Shown piece by piece: positions 1,511 through 13,244 of a stretch of 36,616 nucleotides of DNA (position 1 is its first letter; each line of letters opens with the position of its first letter). The DNA lies in contig JANYDQ010000343.1 of NCBI GenBank assembly GCA_025363555.1, positions 1 to 36,616 of the forward strand, in the 5' to 3' direction. Origin of the DNA: Bacteroidota bacterium (GTDB taxonomy: Bacteria > Bacteroidota > Bacteroidia > 2-12-FULL-35-15). The translations under genes and the position numbers were made by a program. The notes beneath the pieces were generated by a model. The model made no database searches, had not been told where the DNA came from, and saw only the letters and a list, made by a program, of their open reading frames with translations.

Positions 1511-1822
1511 TTAGCTCATGGCATGTCTTCCGTCTTTTTTAAAGTCAGACACTTTTTCTTTTCCTTTTTCGTAAAGCGAAGAAGCTTCATCTTTTCCTTT
1601 TTCGTAAAGAGAACCGGCTTCATCTTTTGCAGATTCATACTTTTCAACCAGGTTGTTGAATAATTCTTCAAACTTGTCTTCCAGTTCTTCCGTGGTGGCG
1701 GCTCCTTTTTTCATAAGTTTTTTTCTTGTTTCCGAACCTTTGTCGGGTGCAAACAAAATTCCTAATACTGCTCCGGCAGCAACACCTGCCAACATACCTA
1801 ATACTAATTTTCCTCCGTTCAT
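1511..1822 (-). CDS. YtxH domain-containing protein
   Basis: [36 protein letters not shown] signature; repeated [18 protein letters not shown] tail. Confidence 0.9.
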
Positions 1823-1873: not shown

Positions 1874-1929
1874 CAAAGGTGAGATGATTTGGCAAAAGGT
1901 CTGTTATATTATTTTATGAAAATGTTTCA
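1874..1929 (-). promoter_or_regulatory. Promoter of ytxH-like gene with tandem TRTAAY sites
   Basis: Minus strand TATAACAGACCTTTTGCCAAATCATCTCACCTTTG; distal copy TGAAAC 21 bp upstream. Confidence 0.6.
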
Positions 1930-1996
1930 TTATTTAGGCTAAGACTTGGGTCTAGTTTTTTATTGGGCGTGTGCCGATGAAGAATCGGCACCGGGC

Positions 1997-2097
1997 TTTC
2001 CGCTTCAATCTTTTTTGCCCCCGCTGTCACACAGAGCCTGTCGAAGTGCCCAACGCAACAAAAAAGGATTTTCGCTGCAATCCCTCACGCGGTGCTT
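1997..2097. repeat. Dispersed-type intergenic repeat (GTCACACAGAGCCTGTCGAAGTG ... GGATTTTCGCTGCAATCCCTCACGC)
   Basis: Resembles Bacteroidetes intergenic repeats of the CACTTCGACAGGCTCAGTGTGACA type; accounts for the spurious ORF 1971..2171 (HTEPVEV). Confidence 0.5.
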
Positions 2098-2151
2098 CCC
2101 GAAGTTGGCTTCGTAAAAAACATATATTAAAAGAAGTATTAAAAAAGGCGG

Positions 2152-2190
2152 AAAAAATTAAACCTCTTTGATGTTATCGCAGAGGTTTAA
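2152..2190 (-). terminator. Intrinsic terminator of putative small RNA A
   Basis: 10-bp stem TTAAACCTCT/AGAGGTTTAA (2158-2167 with 2181-2190) followed on the minus strand by TTTTTT. Confidence 0.7.
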
Positions 2191-2293
2191 GCATGACATA
2201 TGGTTTTCCTTATCTCAATTAAATTGATTCAGTGGTGAGGGGTTTCCTTTCAGTTTGACCTTATGGGTGGTTCCCTAAACCGATGTAATCTTG
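2152..2293 (-). ncRNA. Putative small RNA A (own promoter and terminator)
   Basis: Minus-strand TATCCTCACCTTTG promoter at about 2300-2313, about 140 nt without an ORF, ends in TTAAACCTCT-N13-AGAGGTTTAA-TTTTTT; related unit at 8101-8249. Confidence 0.5.
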
Positions 2294-2299
2294 CTGGTA

Positions 2300-2355
2300 C
2301 AAAGGTGAGGATAAACCGGGAGGTGGCTATTATAAAATTTTTCGTTAATGTTATA
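2300..2355 (-). promoter_or_regulatory. Promoter of putative small RNA A with tandem TRTAAY sites
   Basis: TATAATAGCCACCTCCCGGTTTATCCTCACCTTTG; distal TATAAC exactly 21 bp upstream. Confidence 0.65.
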
Positions 2356-2369
2356 AAATTTTCCACTTC

Positions 2370-2403
2370 AAAAAATTACCGCCTGGTTTTGCCAGGGAGG
2401 TAA
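2370..2403 (-). terminator. Intrinsic terminator of XRE gene
   Basis: Minus strand TTACCTCCCTGG-caaaa-CCAGGCGGTAA-TTTTTTG. Confidence 0.75.
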
Positions 2404-2415
2404 AGTTTATTCCGA

Positions 2416-2778
2416 TTAACCTTCTTCGTCACATAAGTCGGTTACTTCTACGTTTAATGCGCAGGCTATATCATATACATCAACTATATCTACTTCATAT
2501 TCTGAATCTGCATTTTCTATTCCTCTAACCAGGGCAAGAGGAAGGTCTGATAATTGGGAAAGTTGCTTTAGACTCCATCCTTTTGCTTCTCTCAATTCTT
2601 TAATCCGATTCCCCATTCTGGTATTGAATGCCTGTATAAGCGGATAGTAATCAAAATTCATTCTCCACTCGTTCAGTTTATTCTCAAATTGTTCGTCTGT
2701 TATTCCATTTTCTTCCAATGCAATTTTAAAGCCGGCTGCTGCCTGGCTTATAAATTCCTCGTGCGTTAACTTTTCCAT
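2416..2778 (-). CDS. Helix-turn-helix XRE/Cro-CI family protein
   Basis: RIKELREAKGWSLKQLSQLSDLPLALVRGIENADSEYEVDIVDVYDIACALNVEVTDL. Confidence 0.85.
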   Translation of the reverse strand: MEKLTHEEFISQAAAGFKIALEENGITDEQFENKLNEWRMNFDYYPLIQAFNTRMGNRIKELREAKGWSLKQLSQLSDLPLALVRGIENADSEYEVDIVDVYDIACALNVEVTDLCDEEG

Positions 2779-2824
2779 TTTATTAATTTTTTAAAGGTTA
2801 TTGTTTGTGTTTTAATTCACACCA

Positions 2825-2880
2825 CAAAGTTCGAGAGAATTCACAAATTGGTTGTTATATAAACTTTATTTAAAATCATA
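2825..2880 (-). promoter_or_regulatory. Promoter of XRE gene with tandem TRTAAY sites
   Basis: TATAACAACCAATTTGTGAATTCTCTCGAACTTTG; distal TATGAT 21 bp upstream (1 mismatch). Confidence 0.6.
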
Positions 2881-2969
2881 TTATACGTTTATAAAATTTA
2901 AGGGAATTTGAAACCTCTTTTGGGTGGGTGACTGAAAGCATGAAGTACTAATGTATTTTTTTTAGGTTA

Positions 2970-3010
2970 CCGCCCCCTCTCCTTTGGGCGGGGATAAAGG
3001 GGTGAGGTGG
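2970..3010. repeat. Dispersed-type intergenic repeat CCGCCCCCTCTCCTTTGGGCGGGGATAAAGGGGTGAGG
   Basis: CCCCTCTCCTTTGG...GGGGTGAGG pattern common between Bacteroidetes genes; internal dyad. Confidence 0.5.
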
Positions 3011-3032
3011 TTGAGTGCAGTTTAACAGCACC

Positions 3033-4295
3033 TTAAGGGGTAAGGTTCTTTTTTTTATTAGGTGTAAGAATTAACCGGAGGGAAGTATCTTTGGTGAAGT
3101 ATGCCCACGCCCAGTTAATAAAAATTATCAGTTTGTTTCTCACACTCAAAATAAGCATGAGGTGCAAAAACATCCATGTTAACCATGCCAGATACCCTTT
3201 AAATTTAATAAAGGGCAAATCTACCACTGCTTTGTTTCTCCCTATGGTTGCCATGGTGCCACGGTCTTTGTATTCAAACTCCACCCATTTTTTACCGTTT
3301 GCCATTCGTTTAAAATTCTTTGCTAAATTTTTTGCCTGGTTAATAGCCACGTTAGCTACCTGCGGATGGCTCATGGGATACATAGGAGTTTGCATATAGG
3401 CAATATCGCCTAAAGCAAAAACAGCAGAACACCCTTCCACTTTATTGGTTCGAGATACTTTAATGCGGTTTCCTTTAGTAAACGATTCGTGGGGTATGCC
3501 TTCCACCATATTGGGAGTAACCCCTGCAGTCCAAATTACTGTTTTTGTTTTTATTGTATTCCTGTTACTAAAGGTAAGAATTTCTCCGTCATAGTTTTTT
3601 ACAATTGTTTCCGTAAGTACATTCACTCCCATTTGCTCCAGGTATTTTCGCGAAGCAGTTTTGGCGCTGTTACTCATATTATTTAAAGTGTATTTACTTC
3701 CTTCTACAAGGGTGATATTAAATTTAGAAAAATCAATGCCGGGATAATCTTTGGGCAATATGTTCTTTTTAATTTCTGCAAATGCACCTGCCAATTCCAC
3801 CCCGGTAGGACCGGCACCAGCTATCACCATGTTCAGCAAACTTTCTTTTTCCGTTTCCTTTGCCGAAATAATATCTTCAAACATTTGCAATACATGATTG
3901 CGAATGGTAATGGCATCTGATGTAGATTTTAAAGTAAACGAATTTCTATCAATCTCCTTGTTGCCGAAAAAATTGGTGGTGCAACCGATAGCAAGCACCA
4001 GGAAATCGTATTCGAACTCCCCAATAGAAGTGTTTATTTTATTAGCAGCTGGATGGATACTAATTACTTCGGCAAGCCGTATCTGCACATTTTTTTTATA
4101 TTTAAAAATATGGCGCAGCGGAAAGGAAATACTGGCAGGTTCAAGTTGCGAAGTAGCTATCTGGTAAAACAACGGCTGAAACTGGTGGTAATTAATTTTA
4201 TCAATAAGAAGAACATCAAATAATTTTTCGTCCAGTGTTTTTATAAACTGAATGCCTGCAAATCCGCCACCTGCCACTATTATTTTTTGTTTCAT
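3033..4295 (-). CDS. NAD(P)/FAD-dependent oxidoreductase (type II NADH dehydrogenase-like)
   Basis: GGGFAGIQFIKTL, VIAGAGPTGVELAGAFAEI, TVIWTAGVTPN, FALGDIA motifs. Confidence 0.85.
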   Translation of the reverse strand: MKQKIIVAGGGFAGIQFIKTLDEKLFDVLLIDKINYHQFQPLFYQIATSQLEPASISFPLRHIFKYKKNVQIRLAEVISIHPAANKINTSIGEFEYDFLVLAIGCTTNFFGNKEIDRNSFTLKSTSDAITIRNHVLQMFEDIISAKETEKESLLNMVIAGAGPTGVELAGAFAEIKKNILPKDYPGIDFSKFNITLVEGSKYTLNNMSNSAKTASRKYLEQMGVNVLTETIVKNYDGEILTFSNRNTIKTKTVIWTAGVTPNMVEGIPHESFTKGNRIKVSRTNKVEGCSAVFALGDIAYMQTPMYPMSHPQVANVAINQAKNLAKNFKRMANGKKWVEFEYKDRGTMATIGRNKAVVDLPFIKFKGYLAWLTWMFLHLMLILSVRNKLIIFINWAWAYFTKDTSLRLILTPNKKKNLTP

Positions 4296-4312
4296 CCTGT
4301 ATGTCTTATTTT

Positions 4313-5908
4313 TTAAAAGGATTTTGAATCTGGGTCTGCATCTGTATAAGAAGGCAAATCGAAATTAGCAGGACCATTAATTACTTTTCCCCGGTACGAA
4401 AACCGGCTGCCATGACATGGGCAATCCCAGCTTTTTTCATCATTGTTCCAAAGCACCATACATTTCAAATGCGTACACTCGGCAGATACAAGGAAAAGTT
4501 TTCCGGATTCATCGCGGTAGGCTCCGCATTTTTTTCCGTCCAGCTTTACTATTCCTGCTGTTCCGTTTTTAATTTCCGACAATTCCACACTTCCGGTATA
4601 AAACCATTTTTTTAAAACATTTTTCAAGTCTTCTGCCACCAATTTCAGAGCCACACCACTTTCTTTGAAAGTAAAACGCAAAGGACTGTATAATTTCTCC
4701 CATTTATTTTCTTTCCCATTTATCAAATCAGTTATTAATAAACCTGCAAAAGAACATTGCGTCATCCCGTTTCCCGAATCACCTGTTACAATATAAACAT
4801 TATCGTGGTCCAGCGGATTGCGCCCTATAAATCCAATCCCGTCCATGGGTGCCAACACCTGCCCGGACCACCGATAAACCATTTCCCCGATGGGGAAATG
4901 GTTGCGGGTCCAGGCTTCCAAAACGCGGTACCTGTTTTCTTCGGGCACATGAGTATCGCTCGTTTCCGCAGTAGGATGGTCTTCCCCCCCACTTATAAGC
5001 AGGTCGAACAAATCGTTATACGGATGCAAACGAACATAATGATAGGGCTGATATTTTGTGTTTTTCGAAAAATCTCCTGTATCCCACCAGAGCGCGTTGG
5101 GAAGCGTTCCTTTTTTTACCAATGCACCAATTACATAAGTTCGATAAGGATATTGTTTGGAAAACATGGTGTATAAATTATTCACAGGGAAATTAGTTGC
5201 CACCACAATGTGTTTTGCTTTTACCGTAAATTTATCAGAGGTAGTAATGCCCTGGTGATTTATTTTGGAAGCATGTGTGCAGGTATATACTTTGCCTCCC
5301 ATTTTCTCAATGGCTTTGCACAACCCGTTAATATAATTCAACGGATGAAACTGTGCCTGGTTCAGAAAGCAAAGTGCTTTTTGGGGATACAGCAAACCGG
5401 GCACCTCTTCTTCTTCTCTTATTTTTACCCCGGCTTTTCCGGCTGCTTCAAATTCCTTGCCCAGCGAACCTTCTTTGTCCGAAGGATGGAGAAACAAATA
5501 TCCTTTTACCCGTTCAAATTCGCAGTCTATTTTTTCCTGGTGAACTGTTTGTTCCACAAAATCAATTGCTACCTGATGGCTTTGGGCAATAAGTTTGGTT
5601 TTCTCTTCTCCGAAAATTTTTTCCAAATCATAATATCTGTGATCAAGGGCTGTAACCAAGTGTGCAGTGGTTCGCCCGGTTTCCCCACTTCCTATAAACC
5701 CATCTTCCACCACCACCACTTTTTTGCCCGACAACGAAAGACAATACGCAATGCTTAGCCCCGCTAAGCCACCTCCCACTATAACCACATCTGTTTCCAG
5801 GTTTTCGGTTAACGGGGTTTTGGGAAAAGCAAACTGGCTATCTGTCCAATAGCTTATATTTTTTCCGGCTGTTATCCGCGGGTCATTCGGTGTATTATTG
5901 ATTTCCAT
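4313..5908 (-). CDS. FAD-dependent oxidoreductase (DAO-type) with C-terminal Rieske [2Fe-2S] domain
   Basis: DVVIVGGGLAGLSIAYCLSLSGKKVVVVE; CTHLKCMVLWNNDEKSWDCPCHGSRFSYRGKVINGPA. Confidence 0.9.
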   Translation of the reverse strand: MEINNTPNDPRITAGKNISYWTDSQFAFPKTPLTENLETDVVIVGGGLAGLSIAYCLSLSGKKVVVVEDGFIGSGETGRTTAHLVTALDHRYYDLEKIFGEEKTKLIAQSHQVAIDFVEQTVHQEKIDCEFERVKGYLFLHPSDKEGSLGKEFEAAGKAGVKIREEEEVPGLLYPQKALCFLNQAQFHPLNYINGLCKAIEKMGGKVYTCTHASKINHQGITTSDKFTVKAKHIVVATNFPVNNLYTMFSKQYPYRTYVIGALVKKGTLPNALWWDTGDFSKNTKYQPYHYVRLHPYNDLFDLLISGGEDHPTAETSDTHVPEENRYRVLEAWTRNHFPIGEMVYRWSGQVLAPMDGIGFIGRNPLDHDNVYIVTGDSGNGMTQCSFAGLLITDLINGKENKWEKLYSPLRFTFKESGVALKLVAEDLKNVLKKWFYTGSVELSEIKNGTAGIVKLDGKKCGAYRDESGKLFLVSAECTHLKCMVLWNNDEKSWDCPCHGSRFSYRGKVINGPANFDLPSYTDADPDSKSF

Positions 5909-5947
5909 TTTTTAGAAATGAGTTTAAAAATCAGTTTATTCTTTGTA

Positions 5948-6003
5948 CAAAAATCCGTTTTTTTAATGAAAACTATGTTACACAGTTTTTCAATTAAGTT
6001 ATA
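5948..6003 (-). promoter_or_regulatory. Promoter of FAD/Rieske gene with tandem TRTAAY sites
   Basis: TGTAACATAGTTTTCATTAAAAAAACGGATTTTTG; distal TATAAC exactly 21 bp upstream. Confidence 0.65.
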
Positions 6004-6037
6004 TCATTCGTAAAACAAATTCATTCGTAAAACAAAT
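6004..6037. repeat. 17-bp tandem duplication TCATTCGTAAAACAAAT x2
   Basis: Two identical adjacent copies, 6004-6020 and 6021-6037, between divergent promoters. Confidence 0.9.
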
Positions 6038-6063
6038 TTCGAGCAAAATCTTTGGATAAATGA

Positions 6064-6119
6064 TATAATTTTAAGTGTGAATTGTATAAATGATCCGGGA
6101 AAATGTTGCTGTAATTTTG
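6064..6119 (+). promoter_or_regulatory. Promoter of DUF1328 gene with tandem TRTAAY sites
   Basis: TATAAATGATCCGGGAAAATGTTGCTGTAATTTTG (consensus TAATTTTG -7); distal TATAAT exactly 21 bp upstream. Confidence 0.65.
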
Positions 6120-6162
6120 CCACACCAATTTTCAAATCACTAATTCTTTAAAACTTATTATT

Positions 6163-6333
6163 ATGTTAAAATGGACAGCAATTTTCCTGGTTATTTCCAT
6201 CATAGCCGCACTTTTTGGTTTCACAGACATTGCAGAGGGTGCATCGTCTATCGCTAAAGTAATATTTTCAATATTTATTACTTTAATGGTTATCACTTTT
6301 GTTCTTGGAATGACACTTTTCAGAAAAAAATAA
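6163..6333 (+). CDS. DUF1328 (YtjA-like) small membrane protein, 56 aa
   Basis: [56 protein letters not shown]; below the ORF-track cutoff but a clear family match. Confidence 0.88.
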
Positions 6334-6584
6334 AAAGCAATGATTATGGGTTTTACATATGCCTCGCTTCAAGAAGGGCATTTTTTAAATTTTGAGGGTG
6401 CTTATTTAACCCTTAACAAATTTTTTTCTGTCTGTGTAAGAACGTTACGAACCCGTAAAATGATTTTGCCCGTTCGCTTTAATGTTTTTCACTACTGCAA
6501 AAAAATTGTGGTCAACGAAAAAAAAATCTGTAAATTAATTTACTCCAGGTTTTATTTGAGAATATTCCATATCCGCGGTAGTTA

Positions 6585-7407
6585 TTAAAGAGAATTGGTA
6601 ATGTGTTTTACACTTAACACAGGAATTTTGGAATGATTTACAATTTGCTGGGCAAACACTCCAAGAAAAAATCCGGCTATTTTCGATTCGTGCCCTGTAT
6701 TAATAACAATCAGGTCGCAGAGATTTTTATGTGAATACTCCATGGCTGCCTGTGCCAGGTTGTCTCCTTCTGTCCAGGTAGTATAAAAAGGTATTTCTAC
6801 CAATTGTAAAATTTGCTCCACGGAATGCAGTTTGGTTTTAAATTTTCCCAGTTCGGGCTCATCGGTTGTATGGGGTAAAGCTAACACATAAATTTTTGCA
6901 CCGAACATGCTTGCAAATTCCATTGCCATATTTACTTTTTCTTCGCTGTGCATAGAATTATCTATTGGCAGAAGAATGTTTTTCAATTTCAGTTTGTCGG
7001 TATTGGTTTGCATAGTGAGCACCGGCACCTCGGAAAGTGAAACAATGCGGTCGGCATTGCTGCCCACTACTACTTCTTTATAGCCTGATGCTCCATGAGT
7101 ACCCATTACTATCAATTGCATTTTCCTTGTTTTGGCAAAATCAACAATTTCGCTATCTGTTCTTCCTTTCGTGATATAGGTTTTAACTATGATTCCATGT
7201 TTTTTTAAAATATCTTCTTTTATATTTTCCATTTTTCGGGTGATTACAAGTTCTATGTCAGTCGCAGAATCCAAGTGTTCGATATTATGAATGATAAAAA
7301 TATCGGCAAATATTAATTTTGCAATGGTGATGGCTTGCAAAAGTGCTGTTTCGGATGTTTCTGTTGAAATCTACCGGAACAAGGATATTTTTGATTTCAG
7401 TTTTCAT
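6585..7407 (-). pseudogene. Universal stress protein (UspA, two domains), N-terminus frameshifted
   Basis: ATG at 7407 gives MKTEIKNILVPVDF, then frame is lost; next frame continues TETSETALLQAITIAKLIFADIFIIHNI (track ORF 6585..7340). VMGTHGASGYKEVVVGSNADRIVSLSEVPVLTM is UspA-typical. Confidence 0.8.
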
Positions 7408-7434
7408 TGGTTTTTTGGTTTGGTTAATTTAATA

Positions 7435-7490
7435 CAAAGGTCGGAAATGATTGCTAAACGGGCGTTACAGGATATGGATAAAGTATTACA
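7435..7490 (-). promoter_or_regulatory. Promoter of uspA-like gene with tandem TRTAAY sites
   Basis: TGTAACGCCCGTTTAGCAATCATTTCCGACCTTTG; distal TGTAAT exactly 21 bp upstream. Confidence 0.65.
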
Positions 7491-7634
7491 GTTTTACTTT
7501 ATGGCTGGGGGATGGTATTTTTAAAGGTTCGAAAGGGTTTTCCTCAAAACTGGGGTAAAATAGCTACTTGTGTTTTCCTACTTTGAAGGAAATAAAAAAA
7601 GATTAACGAATGAAGGTAATTTACCGCACCGGTT

Positions 7635-8066
7635 TCAGGCTTGATTAAGCACAAAATTATCGAGAGAGGAATCGGGCGTATGAAGGCGAAAGTCGGTTTG
7701 CAGTGCTTTTTGAATGGTTGAAGTCCATGCTTTTGCATCGGTTGGTTTTTTGATGAATAAATTGGCGCCCAAATCGTGGAGCCATTTAATAATGCCTTCG
7801 GCAGAGGTAGTGGTGAAAATAACGATAGGCAGATTATTAAATTTTTGGTTGGCGCGAATTTCTGTAACGCATTGATATCCGTTTTTAAGAGGCATGTTAA
7901 TGTCCAGGAAAAGTATGTCGTGTTCCAGAGGATTTTTGAGCAACTCCATTAGTTCTGACCCGTCTTTTACATGGGTGAGTTGTGTTTCAAGAGGGATTTC
8001 TTTTAACGCATCGCGAAAAAATTCGTAATCGTCTTCATCGTCTTCGGCATACAAAATTTTTATCAT
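7635..8066 (-). CDS. Single-domain response regulator (CheY/Rcp1-like receiver)
   Basis: ILYAEDDEDDYEFFRDAL, DILFLDINMPLKNGYQCVTEIR, LPIVIFTTTSAE, LFIKKPTD. Confidence 0.9.
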   Translation of the reverse strand: MIKILYAEDDEDDYEFFRDALKEIPLETQLTHVKDGSELMELLKNPLEHDILFLDINMPLKNGYQCVTEIRANQKFNNLPIVIFTTTSAEGIIKWLHDLGANLFIKKPTDAKAWTSTIQKALQTDFRLHTPDSSLDNFVLNQA

Positions 8067-8100
8067 TTTAGTATAGGAGTTTTGGACAAGTTCCAGTAAT

Positions 8101-8129
8101 TAAAAATACCCTCCGCATAAGCGGAAGGC
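8101..8129 (-). terminator. Intrinsic terminator/attenuator hairpin at end of RNA B
   Basis: CCTTCCGC-ttat-GCGGAGGG followed on the minus strand by TATTTTTA. Confidence 0.6.
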
Positions 8130-8249
8130 ATTTTTTGGTTGCTTTCCTTTTCGTCCCGATACTTATATCCTGGATTTAAGTGGTTAAGGGTGTTACTGCT
8201 CGTTGCTCTTTGCGGTATCCCCTAAGCAATTGTATAACTTTGCTTTTAA
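8101..8249 (-). ncRNA. Putative small RNA B, or 5' leader/attenuator of the response regulator
   Basis: TATCCTGACCTTTG promoter, about 145 nt without an ORF, ends in GCCTTCCGCTTATGCGGAGGGTATTTTTAA; shares promoter and CCACTtAAATC..GATaTAAG hairpin region with unit A. Confidence 0.5.
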
Positions 8250-8255
8250 CTAATG

Positions 8256-8311
8256 CAAAGGTCAGGATAATTGCTCTTTCTCCTATTACATTATTACAAA
8301 TTTTAGTTATA
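8256..8311 (-). promoter_or_regulatory. Promoter of putative RNA B with tandem TRTAAY sites
   Basis: TGTAATAGGAGAAAGAGCAATTATCCTGACCTTTG; distal TATAAC exactly 21 bp upstream. Confidence 0.65.
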
Positions 8312-8350
8312 TAATTATTTAATGTATTTCACAAACAAAAAGGTAATTGT

Positions 8351-8406
8351 TATAATAATGGCGGCAAATGTTATAATGCTTTTCTTTTAAAATCCACCTA
8401 TTTTTG
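8351..8406 (+). promoter_or_regulatory. Promoter of STAS-like gene with tandem TRTAAY sites
   Basis: TATAATGCTTTTCTTTTAAAATCCACCTATTTTTG (TATTTTTG -7); distal TATAAT exactly 21 bp upstream. Confidence 0.65.
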
Positions 8407-8446
8407 TAGAATAAAATAAGCGGTACATTTAAGAATCTGAATAGCT

Positions 8447-8842
8447 ATGCTACAACCTTCTTCCACGGCTCAATTAATTGAATTTCCTTCCTCTACTATT
8501 TGGTTTGGGGAAGAAGGAATAGTGTATTCTGTTTCAAAAAAAATGCCGCCCGCTACTATTGAGGAAACAAAAAAGGTAGTGGAAGATTTTAAGAAAATGC
8601 TTGATGGCAAAAAAGTGTGTTTCCTGATTGATGTTACCCATTCTCAAGCTACCACGCCAGAAGTGCGGAACTATGCGGCACTGGAGTTTCCTAAATTTAC
8701 AAAAGCAATAGCCATGGTTTCCGATTCGGCTTTGGGCACTATGCTGGCAAATATGTTTTTCACCATCAAAAAACAACCTTACCCAACCAAAATGTTTTCA
8801 TCCCAGGAAAAAGCGGAAGAATGGCTTAAGCAGTATTTGTAA
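8447..8842 (+). CDS. SpoIIAA/STAS-like small protein
   Basis: 131 aa; KVCFLIDVTHSQATTPEVRNYAALEFPKFTKAIAMVSDSALGTMLANMFFTIKKQPYPTKMFSSQEKAEEWLKQYL. Confidence 0.5.
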   Translation: MLQPSSTAQLIEFPSSTIWFGEEGIVYSVSKKMPPATIEETKKVVEDFKKMLDGKKVCFLIDVTHSQATTPEVRNYAALEFPKFTKAIAMVSDSALGTMLANMFFTIKKQPYPTKMFSSQEKAEEWLKQYL

Positions 8843-8911
8843 AATCGGAGTTTGTTTTTTCCGCATTGGTTTGTTATTACAAAAAACAAAAAATTATTAC
8901 TAAAAACAAAA

Positions 8912-8940
8912 ACTGAAAATTTATTTTTTTAAAATTTCAG
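8912..8940. terminator. Hairpin between convergent genes
   Basis: CTGAAAATTTATTTTTTTAAAATTTCAG, imperfect A/T-rich stem. Confidence 0.45.
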
Positions 8941-8964
8941 CTATTTGTAGTTAGAAATTGTTTT

Positions 8965-10356
8965 CTACTCCACTACTACCTTTTTCACCTCTCTTCTCAT
9001 CTGCTTGTCGAAGCCTCCCCCGATCACTTCCACCAAATAAACCCCTTTCCCTACTCCACTCAAATCAAAACTCTCTTTCAATTCTTTTTGAAAAGAATAT
9101 TTTTTACTGATAATGGATTTCCCTAAAAGATTTTTTATATTAATAGTTGCTTCAGGACAATCTCCTTTAAAACAAACAGTAAAAATATTAGTTGTTGGGT
9201 TGGGGTAAATAGTAAAATCGGAACTATTTACAATTGCATTGACCAACACTGTAGTATTGTTATTTCCAAATTTCATTACCGTTTCATAGTAATGTGGGGT
9301 ATTATCATCACTAAAAGACAAATACAGATTATCATTTCTATCAATAGCTAAGGTGGTAAATAAAACATCCCATGCCGATACTCCGGAACTTCCAACAGGC
9401 AGCCAATCTGTACCATTAAATTTTCTTACCACTGCCCTCTGACCGTTTAAATTGTCTTTATAAGCTACATAAATAGAATCTTTTGAATCTATTGCAATAG
9501 AAGCGTATTCTGTGTTGCCGGCAGAAGCAGGAGTCCCCAGTTCAACCCAATTATTCCCGTCAAATTTTACTACAGCTGCCTTATTTGAAACAGAACAAAC
9601 CATATATGGATTATTATTACTATCAAAAGCCAGGCTTCTTGTATATTCCGCATTCCAGTTTTTAAACCCTGGTGTACCCACCTGCACCCAATTAGTGCCA
9701 TCAAACTTTTGAACAGTAGCCCTGAAACTATTGCTGAAATCTGAATAAGCAACATAAGGAACATTATGTTTATCAAAAGTAATGGAAGTGTATAAAGCCC
9801 CTTCGTTGCCATCTCCCAACAGGGAAAATCCCGGTGTTCCAACATAAATCCAATTGGTTCCATCAAATTTCTTAACGCTTGCTCTGTAATCATGAGCAAC
9901 ATCCCGAAAGGTAACATAAGGAATGCCGTTGGAATCTATTGCAATAGAATTATAACTCACCGCAGTATCCGAAAAACCAGGATTACCTAAATATACCCAA
10001 TTGCTTCCATCAAATTTCATCACTGTAATTTTTTTGCCCACTGTCCAATCCATATATGTTACATAAGGTATTCCTGTTCTATCAAAAGCCATTGAAGGAC
10101 AATCTACAATACCGGCAGAAAATTCTCTGTTACCAACCGTATCCCAATTAGTCCCGTTATATTTCATTACTGTTGCCTTTGCATAATGCCCTGAATCGCG
10201 AAAAACTACATAAGGTTCATTAGTTAAAGGATTTACAGCAATGAAAGGGTAATCAGCCACTGCATTTGAAAAACCTGCCACACCTGCAATTTGCCATTGC
10301 GCAACCATGTGTGACACGATTAACAAAAACACTGTTATAACTACTCCTTTTTTCAT
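8965..10356 (-). CDS. Secreted seven-repeat (predicted beta-propeller) protein with T9SS type A sorting domain
   Basis: Signal peptide; seven units of the form IAIDSNGIPYVTFRD...FDGTNWxxVG; C-terminal FTIYPNPTTNIFTV...CTD. Confidence 0.8.
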   Translation of the reverse strand: MKKGVVITVFLLIVSHMVAQWQIAGVAGFSNAVADYPFIAVNPLTNEPYVVFRDSGHYAKATVMKYNGTNWDTVGNREFSAGIVDCPSMAFDRTGIPYVTYMDWTVGKKITVMKFDGSNWVYLGNPGFSDTAVSYNSIAIDSNGIPYVTFRDVAHDYRASVKKFDGTNWIYVGTPGFSLLGDGNEGALYTSITFDKHNVPYVAYSDFSNSFRATVQKFDGTNWVQVGTPGFKNWNAEYTRSLAFDSNNNPYMVCSVSNKAAVVKFDGNNWVELGTPASAGNTEYASIAIDSKDSIYVAYKDNLNGQRAVVRKFNGTDWLPVGSSGVSAWDVLFTTLAIDRNDNLYLSFSDDNTPHYYETVMKFGNNNTTVLVNAIVNSSDFTIYPNPTTNIFTVCFKGDCPEATINIKNLLGKSIISKKYSFQKELKESFDLSGVGKGVYLVEVIGGGFDKQMRREVKKVVVE

Positions 10357-10381
10357 TGTTAATTTCTTATTAAATATGCTG

Positions 10382-10437
10382 CAAAGATCAATAAAATTAA
10401 TGTTTTGAGACTTACACCCCTTTAATAATTCATTACG
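10382..10437 (-). promoter_or_regulatory. Promoter of propeller gene with tandem TRTAA-type sites
   Basis: TGTAAGTCTCAAAACATTAATTTTATTGATCTTTG; distal CGTAAT 21 bp upstream (1 mismatch). Confidence 0.45.
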
Positions 10438-10457
10438 TCATTCAACTTTTACAAATC

Positions 10458-10513
10458 AATAACATTTTCACAAAATTTTATAAAAGGAAATATTAATCTT
10501 ACCACCACCTTTG
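10458..10513 (+). promoter_or_regulatory. Promoter of 10533 gene with tandem TRTAA-type sites
   Basis: TATAAAAGGAAATATTAATCTTACCACCACCTTTG; distal AATAAC 21 bp upstream (1 mismatch). Confidence 0.45.
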
Positions 10514-10532: not shown

Positions 10533-13244
10533 ATGAAAAAAAGTACTGTGCTGACTATCATTATAGTTTATCTGAATAGTTTTGCTTTTGCACAATTCCC
10601 TGCCGGAATTAATGTTTGGATGAATAACAAATACATTCATTATCCTACTAACCCGGGAGGCTATGCCGATTTTCCGCCCACCCAAAACCTTGTGAGCGCA
10701 ACGGGAGTTAAATATTATAGAATTGGAGGTTCAGGTTACGACATCTATGGAACAGCAATAGGTGACGATTCAGCACACAACGACTACATAGCCGCAATTG
10801 ATAAAATAAAACACGCTAATCCTGATGCAGGGTTTTTAATCCAGGTTCCTTTTCACTCGGATAGCATGACATCAATACTCGCCAAAATATTAGTTCTGAA
10901 TATTAAAAATGCTTTTCCTTCACAACGATTTTATTACGCTATCGGAAACGAATGGGATAGATATGTTAAGCCCGGTACTTCTGCAAAATATTCTTCATCT
11001 GAAATTAGCGATACTATAAAGAAGTATGCAATGGAAATGAAATCAGCGGATACGACTATTCGCATTGTTGCTCCTGCACTTTCTAATTTTAAAGCAATGG
11101 ATAGAGACACTAATTTAATAATGAAACGCCTGCTTACCAGTATTGACAGCATTACTGGAAAAATTGCTGCCAGTCCTTATGCTTTCTTAAACGGACATTA
11201 TTACTATGTTGACTGCATTGACTTCCATTCATACGGAGGAACTGTGGGAATATTAGATACTATCCTTTCATCAGATTACGATTCTATCCGAGCCGGAATA
11301 ATAAATTATCCTGACAATGGCGGTTTTAAAAAAAACCTAGACACCCTCCAGATATGGCTTCACCATGCAAATATAGCACGAAGCCCAAGCCCTCTAACTT
11401 TTGCCATCTCCGAAATGAATGTATGTTCCACTAATCCGGTGAAAGCAATTGCTAACGGAGACACTACCACCAATTGCACGCAAGGCATTGCCAGCCGCTC
11501 CTTTTTTGCCGGGCAAATGTGGGCAGATTATTTTTCAACGATTATTGCCAGTTCCACCTCTCCGGGCAATGCCAAATGCGAATTTATCATGCCCTGGAGC
11601 ATTCATGAACATAATGGCGATGGCAGCATTACTGATTTAGGAATGACCAAAGGCACTGCGTCCGACACTACAGCTCCCATTCCGCTCTCTACTTATCATC
11701 ATTTTAACCTCATGACTCATTATTTTAATCAGAAATTTTATCGCGGTAACTCTTCCATTTCTCCAAACGTAAAGACATTTGCAAGCATTGACCCGAATAC
11801 AAATTTTATTTATGTAATGATTCTTAACAGAAATAAAACTAATTATTCGTATAACATTGGATTTTCAGGAGCAGACGCTTTTCAGTTTGCAGATTTGCAT
11901 CTTCATTTTCCTTTCACTTCAATATACACAATGGACACTACCGTTTATCCTTTTGCTTCCTATGATACGCTTTTTGGAAATTCAACTGTGGTGCTTCAGT
12001 TCAATTGCCACGGTGCTTTTATAATGAAAAAAGTGTACAACCTTGATGATGCACTAAACGATCAACTCCCAAGAGTAAAACAAGCAGAAACTATTCCTAC
12101 TGATATTACTTATCTTAACAAAAATATAATAAATTGCGGTCATGCAGGAGGCACGCACATAGGTGGAATCATTACTTCGAGCACGACTTATGTAAACGAT
12201 ACTATATATATTACCAGCGACCTATCGGTATCTGGGGCTTCGGAACTTACTTTTGTATCCTGCCTGGTTATTGTTTCCGAAGGGGTAAAAATATCGACCG
12301 GAAACCATGGCGGCATTGTTTTACTTAATACCGTTATGGCAGGTTGCGAAGGTAAAACATGGAAAGGAATAGAGATGATGGGAAACTACTACGCTACGGA
12401 AAGATTACATATTACCAATTCATCTATTTTTAATGCAAGCAGGACTATATGGACAGATAAAATACCGGATATAGCCATCACTCAATCTGTATTTGCAAAC
12501 GGGACATCGGCAATAAATTTGAATTCAAGCCATGCTTTTACTATTACCAAAAACCTTATTGCCGGATATACTATGGGAATAAGCACCAAGGGCACTGTAG
12601 CCAATTATCTATCGGAAATTAAAGACAACAGGATTATGGATGTGGAAACAGCCATGACATTTACAAATGATATGCATAATTACCTGGATATATTTTGCAA
12701 CGAAATGTTTTATACCCAAAAAGGCATTGCAGCCAGCACCACCCATTTGAAAGACCAGGGAACATTAAGCATAAGCGCACAAAACAGGTTTACGAAAACA
12801 GTACCCGATATTAATTTGAATTACCTGGACATTTCGGGCTCATCGCCCTTGTATTATTACGGACCATCTGAAACAGTTCCTTTCAGCAAACCCAATATTT
12901 CCAACATAACTACTCATCTTGCTTTTGCAGACAGAACGTGTTACCATACTTTTATGGAAACTTGCCAAACTTCTGCGGGCATTACCGAAAACCTTTCCAG
13001 TCCTTATCCCGAAATGCTCATTTATCCAAACCCGACTGCAGGAACATTTACCATTGGCTTTACGAACCTGACCTCCTGCGCATGTACCTTAACTATCTAT
13101 GACAGGTTGGGAAAACAAATTAGCAACACTAAAATACAAGCCAAAACTGGAAGTACTACTTTGCAAATAGAAAATAAAGGACTCTATTTTGTTTCGCTTC
13201 AAGATGGTAAAGAAAGGATAACCCAAAAAGTGATAGTGGAATAG
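10533..13244 (+). CDS. Secreted protein: N-terminal glycoside-hydrolase-like (TIM-barrel) region, beta-helix-like region, T9SS type A sorting domain
   Basis: Signal peptide; YYAIGNEWDRYVKPGTSAKYSSSE, FAISEMNVC, FIMPWSIHEHNGDGSITDLGMT; later right-handed-helix-like repeats; MLIYPNPTAGTFTI...CTD. Confidence 0.6.
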   Translation: MKKSTVLTIIIVYLNSFAFAQFPAGINVWMNNKYIHYPTNPGGYADFPPTQNLVSATGVKYYRIGGSGYDIYGTAIGDDSAHNDYIAAIDKIKHANPDAGFLIQVPFHSDSMTSILAKILVLNIKNAFPSQRFYYAIGNEWDRYVKPGTSAKYSSSEISDTIKKYAMEMKSADTTIRIVAPALSNFKAMDRDTNLIMKRLLTSIDSITGKIAASPYAFLNGHYYYVDCIDFHSYGGTVGILDTILSSDYDSIRAGIINYPDNGGFKKNLDTLQIWLHHANIARSPSPLTFAISEMNVCSTNPVKAIANGDTTTNCTQGIASRSFFAGQMWADYFSTIIASSTSPGNAKCEFIMPWSIHEHNGDGSITDLGMTKGTASDTTAPIPLSTYHHFNLMTHYFNQKFYRGNSSISPNVKTFASIDPNTNFIYVMILNRNKTNYSYNIGFSGADAFQFADLHLHFPFTSIYTMDTTVYPFASYDTLFGNSTVVLQFNCHGAFIMKKVYNLDDALNDQLPRVKQAETIPTDITYLNKNIINCGHAGGTHIGGIITSSTTYVNDTIYITSDLSVSGASELTFVSCLVIVSEGVKISTGNHGGIVLLNTVMAGCEGKTWKGIEMMGNYYATERLHITNSSIFNASRTIWTDKIPDIAITQSVFANGTSAINLNSSHAFTITKNLIAGYTMGISTKGTVANYLSEIKDNRIMDVETAMTFTNDMHNYLDIFCNEMFYTQKGIAASTTHLKDQGTLSISAQNRFTKTVPDINLNYLDISGSSPLYYYGPSETVPFSKPNISNITTHLAFADRTCYHTFMETCQTSAGITENLSSPYPEMLIYPNPTAGTFTIGFTNLTSCACTLTIYDRLGKQISNTKIQAKTGSTTLQIENKGLYFVSLQDGKERITQKVIVE

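Follow-up and report, generated by a model that had tools for sequence, protein, structure and literature searches.

A tandem TRTAAY promoter site in Bacteroidia and an AraC-type protein that may read it

Ten tandem sites in one contig

The DNA considered in this study (the window) is a stretch of 36,616 nt that makes up one complete contig, C131, of a Bacteroidia assembly (GCA_025363555.1; 4.32 Mb in 400 contigs). Toward its left end lie genes for a YtxH-family protein, an XRE protein, an FAD/Rieske oxidoreductase, a DUF1328 protein, UspA, a receiver, a STAS-like protein and two secreted proteins, along with two candidate small RNAs (RNA A and RNA B). These are served by ten promoters in which the hexamer TRTAAY occurs twice, 21 bp apart, at a fixed distance from a TTTG. 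The best-supported reader of this tandem site is an AraC-family protein of 180-190 amino acids (HTH_18) with a predicted copper-chaperone-like N-terminal domain, which I will call HMA-AraC; judging from gene neighborhoods and modeled structures, I give this reading a probability of about 0.8.

The window was scanned without bias, on both strands, for the pattern TRTAAY-N15-TRTAAY-N25-TTTG. The sites are as follows, all from the pattern scan:

1874..1929, minus strand: site and TTTG of ytxH, TGAAAC-N15-TATAAC-N25-TTTG (also genome search, at most one mismatch)
2300..2355, minus strand: site and TTTG of RNA A, exact
2825..2880, minus strand: site and TTTG of the XRE gene, TATGAT-N15-TATAAC (at most one mismatch)
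5948..6003, minus strand: site and TTTG of the FAD/Rieske oxidoreductase gene, exact
6064..6119, plus strand: site and TTTG of the DUF1328 gene, TATAAT-N15-TATAAA
7435..7490, minus strand: site and TTTG of uspA, exact
8256..8311, minus strand: site and TTTG of RNA B and the receiver gene, exact
8351..8406, plus strand: site and TTTG of the STAS-like (DUF7793/SpoIIAA-like) gene, exact
10382..10437, minus strand: site and TTTG of the beta-propeller/Por-tail protein gene, CGTAAT-N15-TGTAAG
10458..10513, plus strand: site and TTTG of the 10533 gene, AATAAC-N15-TATAAA, the weakest of the ten

The scan recovered every one of the ten promoters that the initial annotation had aligned, each where it had been placed, and found no comparable site on either strand in the rest of the window (10.5-36.6 kb). 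That annotation had put 35 nt between the first T of the proximal hexamer and the G of TTTG; the geometry holds, as an inclusive count, with a spacer of N25. It had also taken six of the pairs as exact. Under strict TRTAAY five are (RNA A, FAD/Rieske, uspA, RNA B and STAS-like), while the pair of DUF1328, one copy of which reads TATAAA, is exact under TRTAAN and not under TRTAAY.

The site across the genome

The abundance of the site in the whole genome was compared with that of control patterns, including the reversed pattern; the tallies of spacing are my own counts of the listed matches. TRTAAN-N15-TRTAAN-N25-TTTG has 55 exact matches, against 0 for the reversed control, and TRTAAY with NANNTTTG, allowing one mismatch, has 70 (38 of them exact) against 8. 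When the first spacer is left free between 3 and 33, N15 accounts for 40 of the 56 matches and the next most frequent value, N16, for 3; when the second is left free between 10 and 40, N25 accounts for 41 of 63. The off-register pattern with N26, a negative control for spacing, gives 1 match against 2 in the controls. An open reading frame (ORF) follows 56 of the 61 sites that were fetched (at most one mismatch), with a median distance of 46 nt from TTTG to ATG, as is expected of real Bacteroidetes promoters.

The tandem site is therefore real and far beyond chance. It might be supposed that AT-rich intergenic DNA throws up such a pattern by chance or composition, since the motif is itself AT-rich, and some exact matches in other genomes do look like matches to coding sequence. 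This supposition is refuted by the 55 matches against 0, by the sharpness of both spacers, and by the fixed position of the site at homologous genes across families; its probability is close to nil. The regulon in this genome would comprise roughly 40-60 promoters, ten of them in the window. One source of false matches was seen in another genome, where a 21-bp simple repeat (TGTAATCAACTTTGCGATTCA; G273:C14:51206-51282) also yields the exact pattern.

Alignment of the 61 sites extends the repeated unit to about AAARTTRTRTAAY, with a period of 21 bp and TTTT between the copies. The sequences AACNNTTT and AAANNGTT, dyadic by eye, were considered as a palindrome, but a direct repeat fits the logo better. 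Counting from the G of TTTG as -7 places the two hexamers at about -62 to -57 and -41 to -36. The -33 TTTG is absent from the aligned sites. The -7 box reads BACCTTTG(Y): A-N-N-TTTG is retained, and T at the -12 position, preferred (59%) in the other A-N-N-TTTG boxes upstream of ORFs in this genome, is no longer so. The box is also enriched in CC relative to TAnnTTTG, the sigmaA -7 consensus, one with three motif variants, in the map of transcription start sites of F. psychrophilum (PMC9723704).

These promoters look, from their layout, like activator-dependent promoters of the primary sigma factor. The initial annotation had offered two explanations, and the anatomy of the site supports the first, that direct repeats on one face of the helix and an activator stand in for the -33 box at sigmaA-like TTTG promoters. 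The second, an alternative sigma factor that recognizes the TRTAAY boxes together with BACCTTTG, has in its favor the fixed distance to the -7 box and the departures of that box from TAnnTTTG, with T at -12 relaxed and CC enriched. Against it, one motif given twice, 21 bp apart at -62 and -41, is not a sigma element, sigmaA is itself known to use three motif variants (PMC9723704), and the sites adjoin an AraC gene rather than a sigma gene. Since the -7 box keeps A-N-N-TTTG and only the T at -12 is relaxed, such a factor is not needed, and I consider it highly improbable.

An AraC-type gene beside the sites

Site-bearing clusters from different families have in common an AraC-type gene next to genes for a PAS hybrid kinase and a receiver. 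The protein, HMA-AraC, was used to search 295 genomes of the class, and the site search was run on the same genomes. A hit at E ≤ 1e-80 is found in 14 of the 18 genomes with at least four sites, against 21 of the other 277 (odds ratio 43, p 2e-11), and the number of sites correlates with the HMA-AraC hit (Spearman 0.49), although related genomes in these counts are not independent. In nine genomes with a single exact site (G022, G024, G075, G086, G122, G200, G225, G248 and G287), that site abuts the HMA-AraC gene. Within one genus, g1, the genome of the window (G000) and G100 have both site and gene, four genomes have neither (G020, G064, G164 and G193), and G220 has sites only.

An independent test made use of 151 distinct HMA-AraC loci selected solely on the protein, of which up to 80 came from a scan of named genomes. 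Pairs of TRTAAY with at most one mismatch in total and spacings of 7-45 were counted in the 260 bp upstream and 180 bp downstream of each gene. There are 93 pairs at spacing 21, as against 8.5 in shuffles (about elevenfold); every other spacing gives 7-38. At 27 loci a downstream site starts exactly 4 nt past the stop codon of araC, and TTTG falls at exactly +25 in 31 of 42 downstream sites. Downstream sites occur in genomes of Prolixibacteraceae, Chitinophagaceae, Flavobacterium, Pontibacter and Runella, among others. The protein family also has single members in Candidatus Theseobacter (Auribacterota; L242, site upstream) and in an assembly of Ignavibacteria (Ignavibacteriota; L229), possibly through horizontal transfer or a binning error.

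The initial annotation had guessed at a regulator of the LytTR type. LytTR sites, which I take the unit AAARTTRTRTAAY to resemble, are direct repeats with a period of about 21 bp, located upstream of -35, and the genome offers 19 LytTR genes, from which a response regulator might be drawn. However, 21-bp pairs are only about twofold enriched around those genes (23 vs 10.8 at other spacings), compared with the elevenfold enrichment, fixed place and phylogenetic co-occurrence of HMA-AraC, and in the clusters read no LytTR gene stood out as occupying a constant position next to the sites. A LytTR reader is very unlikely, and the guess gives way to HMA-AraC.

A different possibility is that the PAS hybrid kinase and receiver act through some other DNA-binding protein, HMA-AraC being just one more target of the regulon. 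The site does often precede the HMA-AraC gene itself, the clusters repeatedly contain the kinase and receiver genes, and two genomes, G220 and G273, have sites and no gene. On the other hand, many sites lie downstream of araC, where they would drive the next gene, and they do so also at loci with CxxC and CopA that lack the kinase; the geometry fits the AraC type; and no second family of DNA-binding proteins was noticed repeatedly next to the sites, HMA-AraC being the only one followed systematically. I judge this explanation unlikely, and return to HMA-AraC as the reader.

The genome of the window has three HMA-AraC paralogues:

C317:26190-26729: HMA-AraC with MVSNRC, then kinase, then receiver
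C80:2921-3466: HMA-AraC with a site directly upstream, beside Usp, SpoIIE-type phosphatase and receiver
C335:6620-7144: third copy

At the C80 locus (L049, G000 C80, 2418-4753), a divergent HMA-AraC without the metal cysteines lies between the receiver and SpoIIE-type phosphatase genes. The gene content of this locus, together with the STAS proteins among the targets, gives a hint of a partner-switching input.

HTH_18 (PF12833) matches above its cut-off (E 1e-13 to 5e-16), which places the C-terminal part among AraC/XylS DNA-binding domains. In an AlphaFold2 model of the protein from Sunxiuqinia indica (pLDDT 84), an E-H-E-E-H-E domain is joined by a linker helix to the double HTH of AraC. Compared by Foldseek with structures in the PDB, the C-terminus matches the DNA-binding domains of AraC, MarA, SoxS and AdpA, and the N-terminus the copper proteins Atx1 and GolB (TMt 0.72-0.75 overall, 0.73-0.75 for Atx1 and 0.74 for GolB; probability 1.00, E 0.1-0.3). 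The predicted model thus has the beta-alpha-beta-beta-alpha-beta fold of HMA domains.

By metal motif, the 151 loci divide into 22 CxxC, 112 SxxC and 17 other or unparsed. Genes of the CxxC type, which is absent from the paralogues of the window's genome, are often followed by one for a copper-type P-ATPase (CopA, CPC motif) or an HMA chaperone, and probably sense copper, to go by these neighbors. In G077, G200 and G225 the exact same site lies between the CxxC araC and the following gene. The SxxC type, which I will call the stress type (MVSxRC, the first metal cysteine lost), sits with the PAS hybrid histidine kinase and single receiver, and forms two clades: one with the site downstream, often before CsbD, the other with the site upstream, before the kinase and receiver genes. 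On a midpoint-rooted tree three changes account for the CxxC motif, where shuffles need 20.8, and most CxxC members branch outside the SxxC group. This distribution suggests that a copper-type AraC regulator was redeployed as the activator of a stress regulon.

Several observations weigh against these conclusions. The Pfam HMA profile stays below its cut-off of 24.8 bits, with 12.8 and 17.5 bits for CxxC members (E 0.005-0.16) and no match for SxxC; because of this I call the domain HMA-like and not a member of HMA. The call rests on the predicted fold, with an E for the chaperones of about 0.1. G220 and G273 have 9 exact sites each and HMA-AraC hits no better than about 1e-9, although at least two of those in G273 lie in a simple repeat, and the missing genes may reflect assembly gaps, since both are fragmented draft assemblies. 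Upstream of the C317 gene there is no site. C80 and C335 are very divergent, lack both metal cysteines and form a long branch, and in G246 a gene of the CxxC type adjoins CopA yet no site is present. Finally, as the tree is midpoint-rooted, the direction of evolution can be stated only as an inference.

Proposed mechanism and the genes under it

AraC at I1-I2 is an activator that binds tandem half-sites. XylS binds 15-bp tandem repeats with A and B boxes at Pm, just upstream of -35 (PMC5481539), and MtlR binds 15-bp blocks at -72..-58 and -50..-36 of PmtlE (PMC4514859). HMA-AraC shares with such regulators the double HTH, two direct repeats set about 21-22 bp apart along one face, a proximal copy just upstream of -35 and, presumably, activation of primary-sigma promoters by a dimer. 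It differs from them in having an HMA-like N-terminal domain in place of a cupin or effector domain, in serving dozens of stress promoters scattered over the genome where the others serve one catabolic operon, and in acting at Bacteroidetes -7 TTTG promoters. With Atx1 and GolB it shares the fold and, in the type that precedes CopA, CxxC; unlike them it is fused to an AraC DNA-binding domain, its stress type has SxxC, and two paralogues in the genome of the window have neither cysteine. LytTR regulators (AgrA, ComE) likewise use direct repeats upstream of -35, also of about 21 bp, but belong to a different protein family, and their genes show no positional link to the sites.

Because the geometry of the site is that of the AraC/XylS tandem repeats, the tandem TRTAAY site may be taken as the operator of HMA-AraC, an assignment made through genomic linkage. 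Computation gives the sites, their spacing, their genomic association with HMA-araC genes, the folds as predicted, and the tree; from these I infer a mechanism that extends to physical binding, activation, the inducer and the evolutionary direction. One monomer would occupy each copy of the direct repeat, the two lying two helical turns apart on the same side of the DNA. Bound in this way, with the nearer copy spanning about -41 to -36, HMA-AraC would recruit RNA polymerase with the primary sigma factor to a -7 ACCTTTG promoter that lacks a -33 box. The paralogues on C317, C80 and C335 would in this way switch on the dispersed stress regulon. As the stress type lies with the PAS hybrid kinase and receiver, its signal probably arrives through that cascade, and the type itself would have been recruited from a copper-sensing CxxC regulator.

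To my knowledge, Bacteroidetes lack classical general-stress sigma factors. A search of the open-access literature, which was not exhaustive, found no description of a master stress regulator of Bacteroidetes, of HMA-AraC or of a TRTAAY operator. I consider it moderately probable that in many Bacteroidia the general stress response is run by a single activator of the AraC type that descends from a copper-sensing regulator, with a single operator carried over from copA to stress promoters, CxxC giving way to SxxC and then both cysteines being lost, as a replacement for sigmaB, RpoS or PhyR in a phylum with no known equivalent. If so, a family of metal sensors would have lost its metal motif and turned into a stress regulator without giving up its DNA site. 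With a named candidate and an exact register of operator and promoter, the regulon can be predicted from sequence across many genomes and put to the test in relatives that are in culture (Sunxiuqinia, Pontibacter, Flavobacterium and others).

The label "stress" is read from the families of the target genes, which bear out the earlier suggestion of a stress-type regulon. Genome-wide they include four receivers, two YtxH, two STAS, Usp, SpoIIE, a PAS kinase, CsbD, MlaE, SDR, topoisomerase IB, Cupin_8 and UbiA, among others. Elsewhere among the site-rich genomes, the sites are strung along extended clusters that contain, by names assigned by eye from the sequence, YtxH, CsbD-like, Dps-like, catalase-like, YceI-like, MlaE/F/D-like, kinase and receiver genes. 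In site-bearing genomes I counted from the tables a site about 50 nt upstream of 8 of 16 CsbD genes and directly upstream of 4 of 21 YtxH genes, the remaining YtxH genes probably lying within operons. CsbD, YtxH, Usp and Dps-like families and SpoIIE/STAS proteins are also found in the sigmaB regulon of Bacillus and the RpoS regulon of E. coli, which depend on an alternative sigma factor, unlike the candidate DNA-binding activator and primary-type promoters proposed here. The genes in the window are:

1511..1822, minus strand: target, YtxH family (Pfam PF12732, E 5e-18)
2416..2778, minus strand: target, XRE/HTH_3 (Pfam PF01381)
3033..4295, minus strand: NDH2-type NAD(P)/FAD oxidoreductase, probably the second gene in the FAD/Rieske operon (domain search)
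4313..5908, minus strand: target, FAD oxidoreductase with Rieske domain (Pfam PF01266 and PF00355)
6163..6333, plus strand: target, DUF1328 small membrane protein (Pfam PF07043)
6585..7407, minus strand: target, uspA, ATG at 7407, apparent frameshift near the 5' end (Pfam PF00582; sequence)
7635..8066, minus strand: target, single receiver-domain response regulator behind the RNA B terminator (Pfam PF00072)
8447..8842, plus strand: target, STAS/SpoIIAA-like protein DUF7793 (Pfam PF25056, PF11964)
8965..10356, minus strand: target, Por_Secre_tail beta-propeller-like secreted protein (domain search)
10533..13244, plus strand: probable target with a weak site, 903-aa secreted protein (ORF, site scan)

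RNA A (about 2299-2150, minus strand) and RNA B (about 8255-8105, minus strand) each consist of a regulon promoter, some 150 nt in which no good ORF is seen, and a terminator-like hairpin, and are candidate small RNAs of the regulon, though RNA B may be the leader of the receiver gene. No homologues were found among the fetched loci; a third case of promoter plus hairpin lies on C314. The only Rfam match is a Flavo-1 RNA (RF01705, 49.9 bits) at 1992-2084 on the minus strand, 3' of RNA A in the gap before the ytxH promoter. In uspA (about 7340-7407, minus strand) the ATG at 7407 opens a Usp-like MKTEIKNILVPVDF, after which the Usp frame continues in another register; the ORF is listed from a TTG at 7340, and the apparent frameshift may be an assembly error or mark a pseudogene. 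A gene similar to the NDH2-type gene at 3033..4295 follows the HMA-araC gene in L278.

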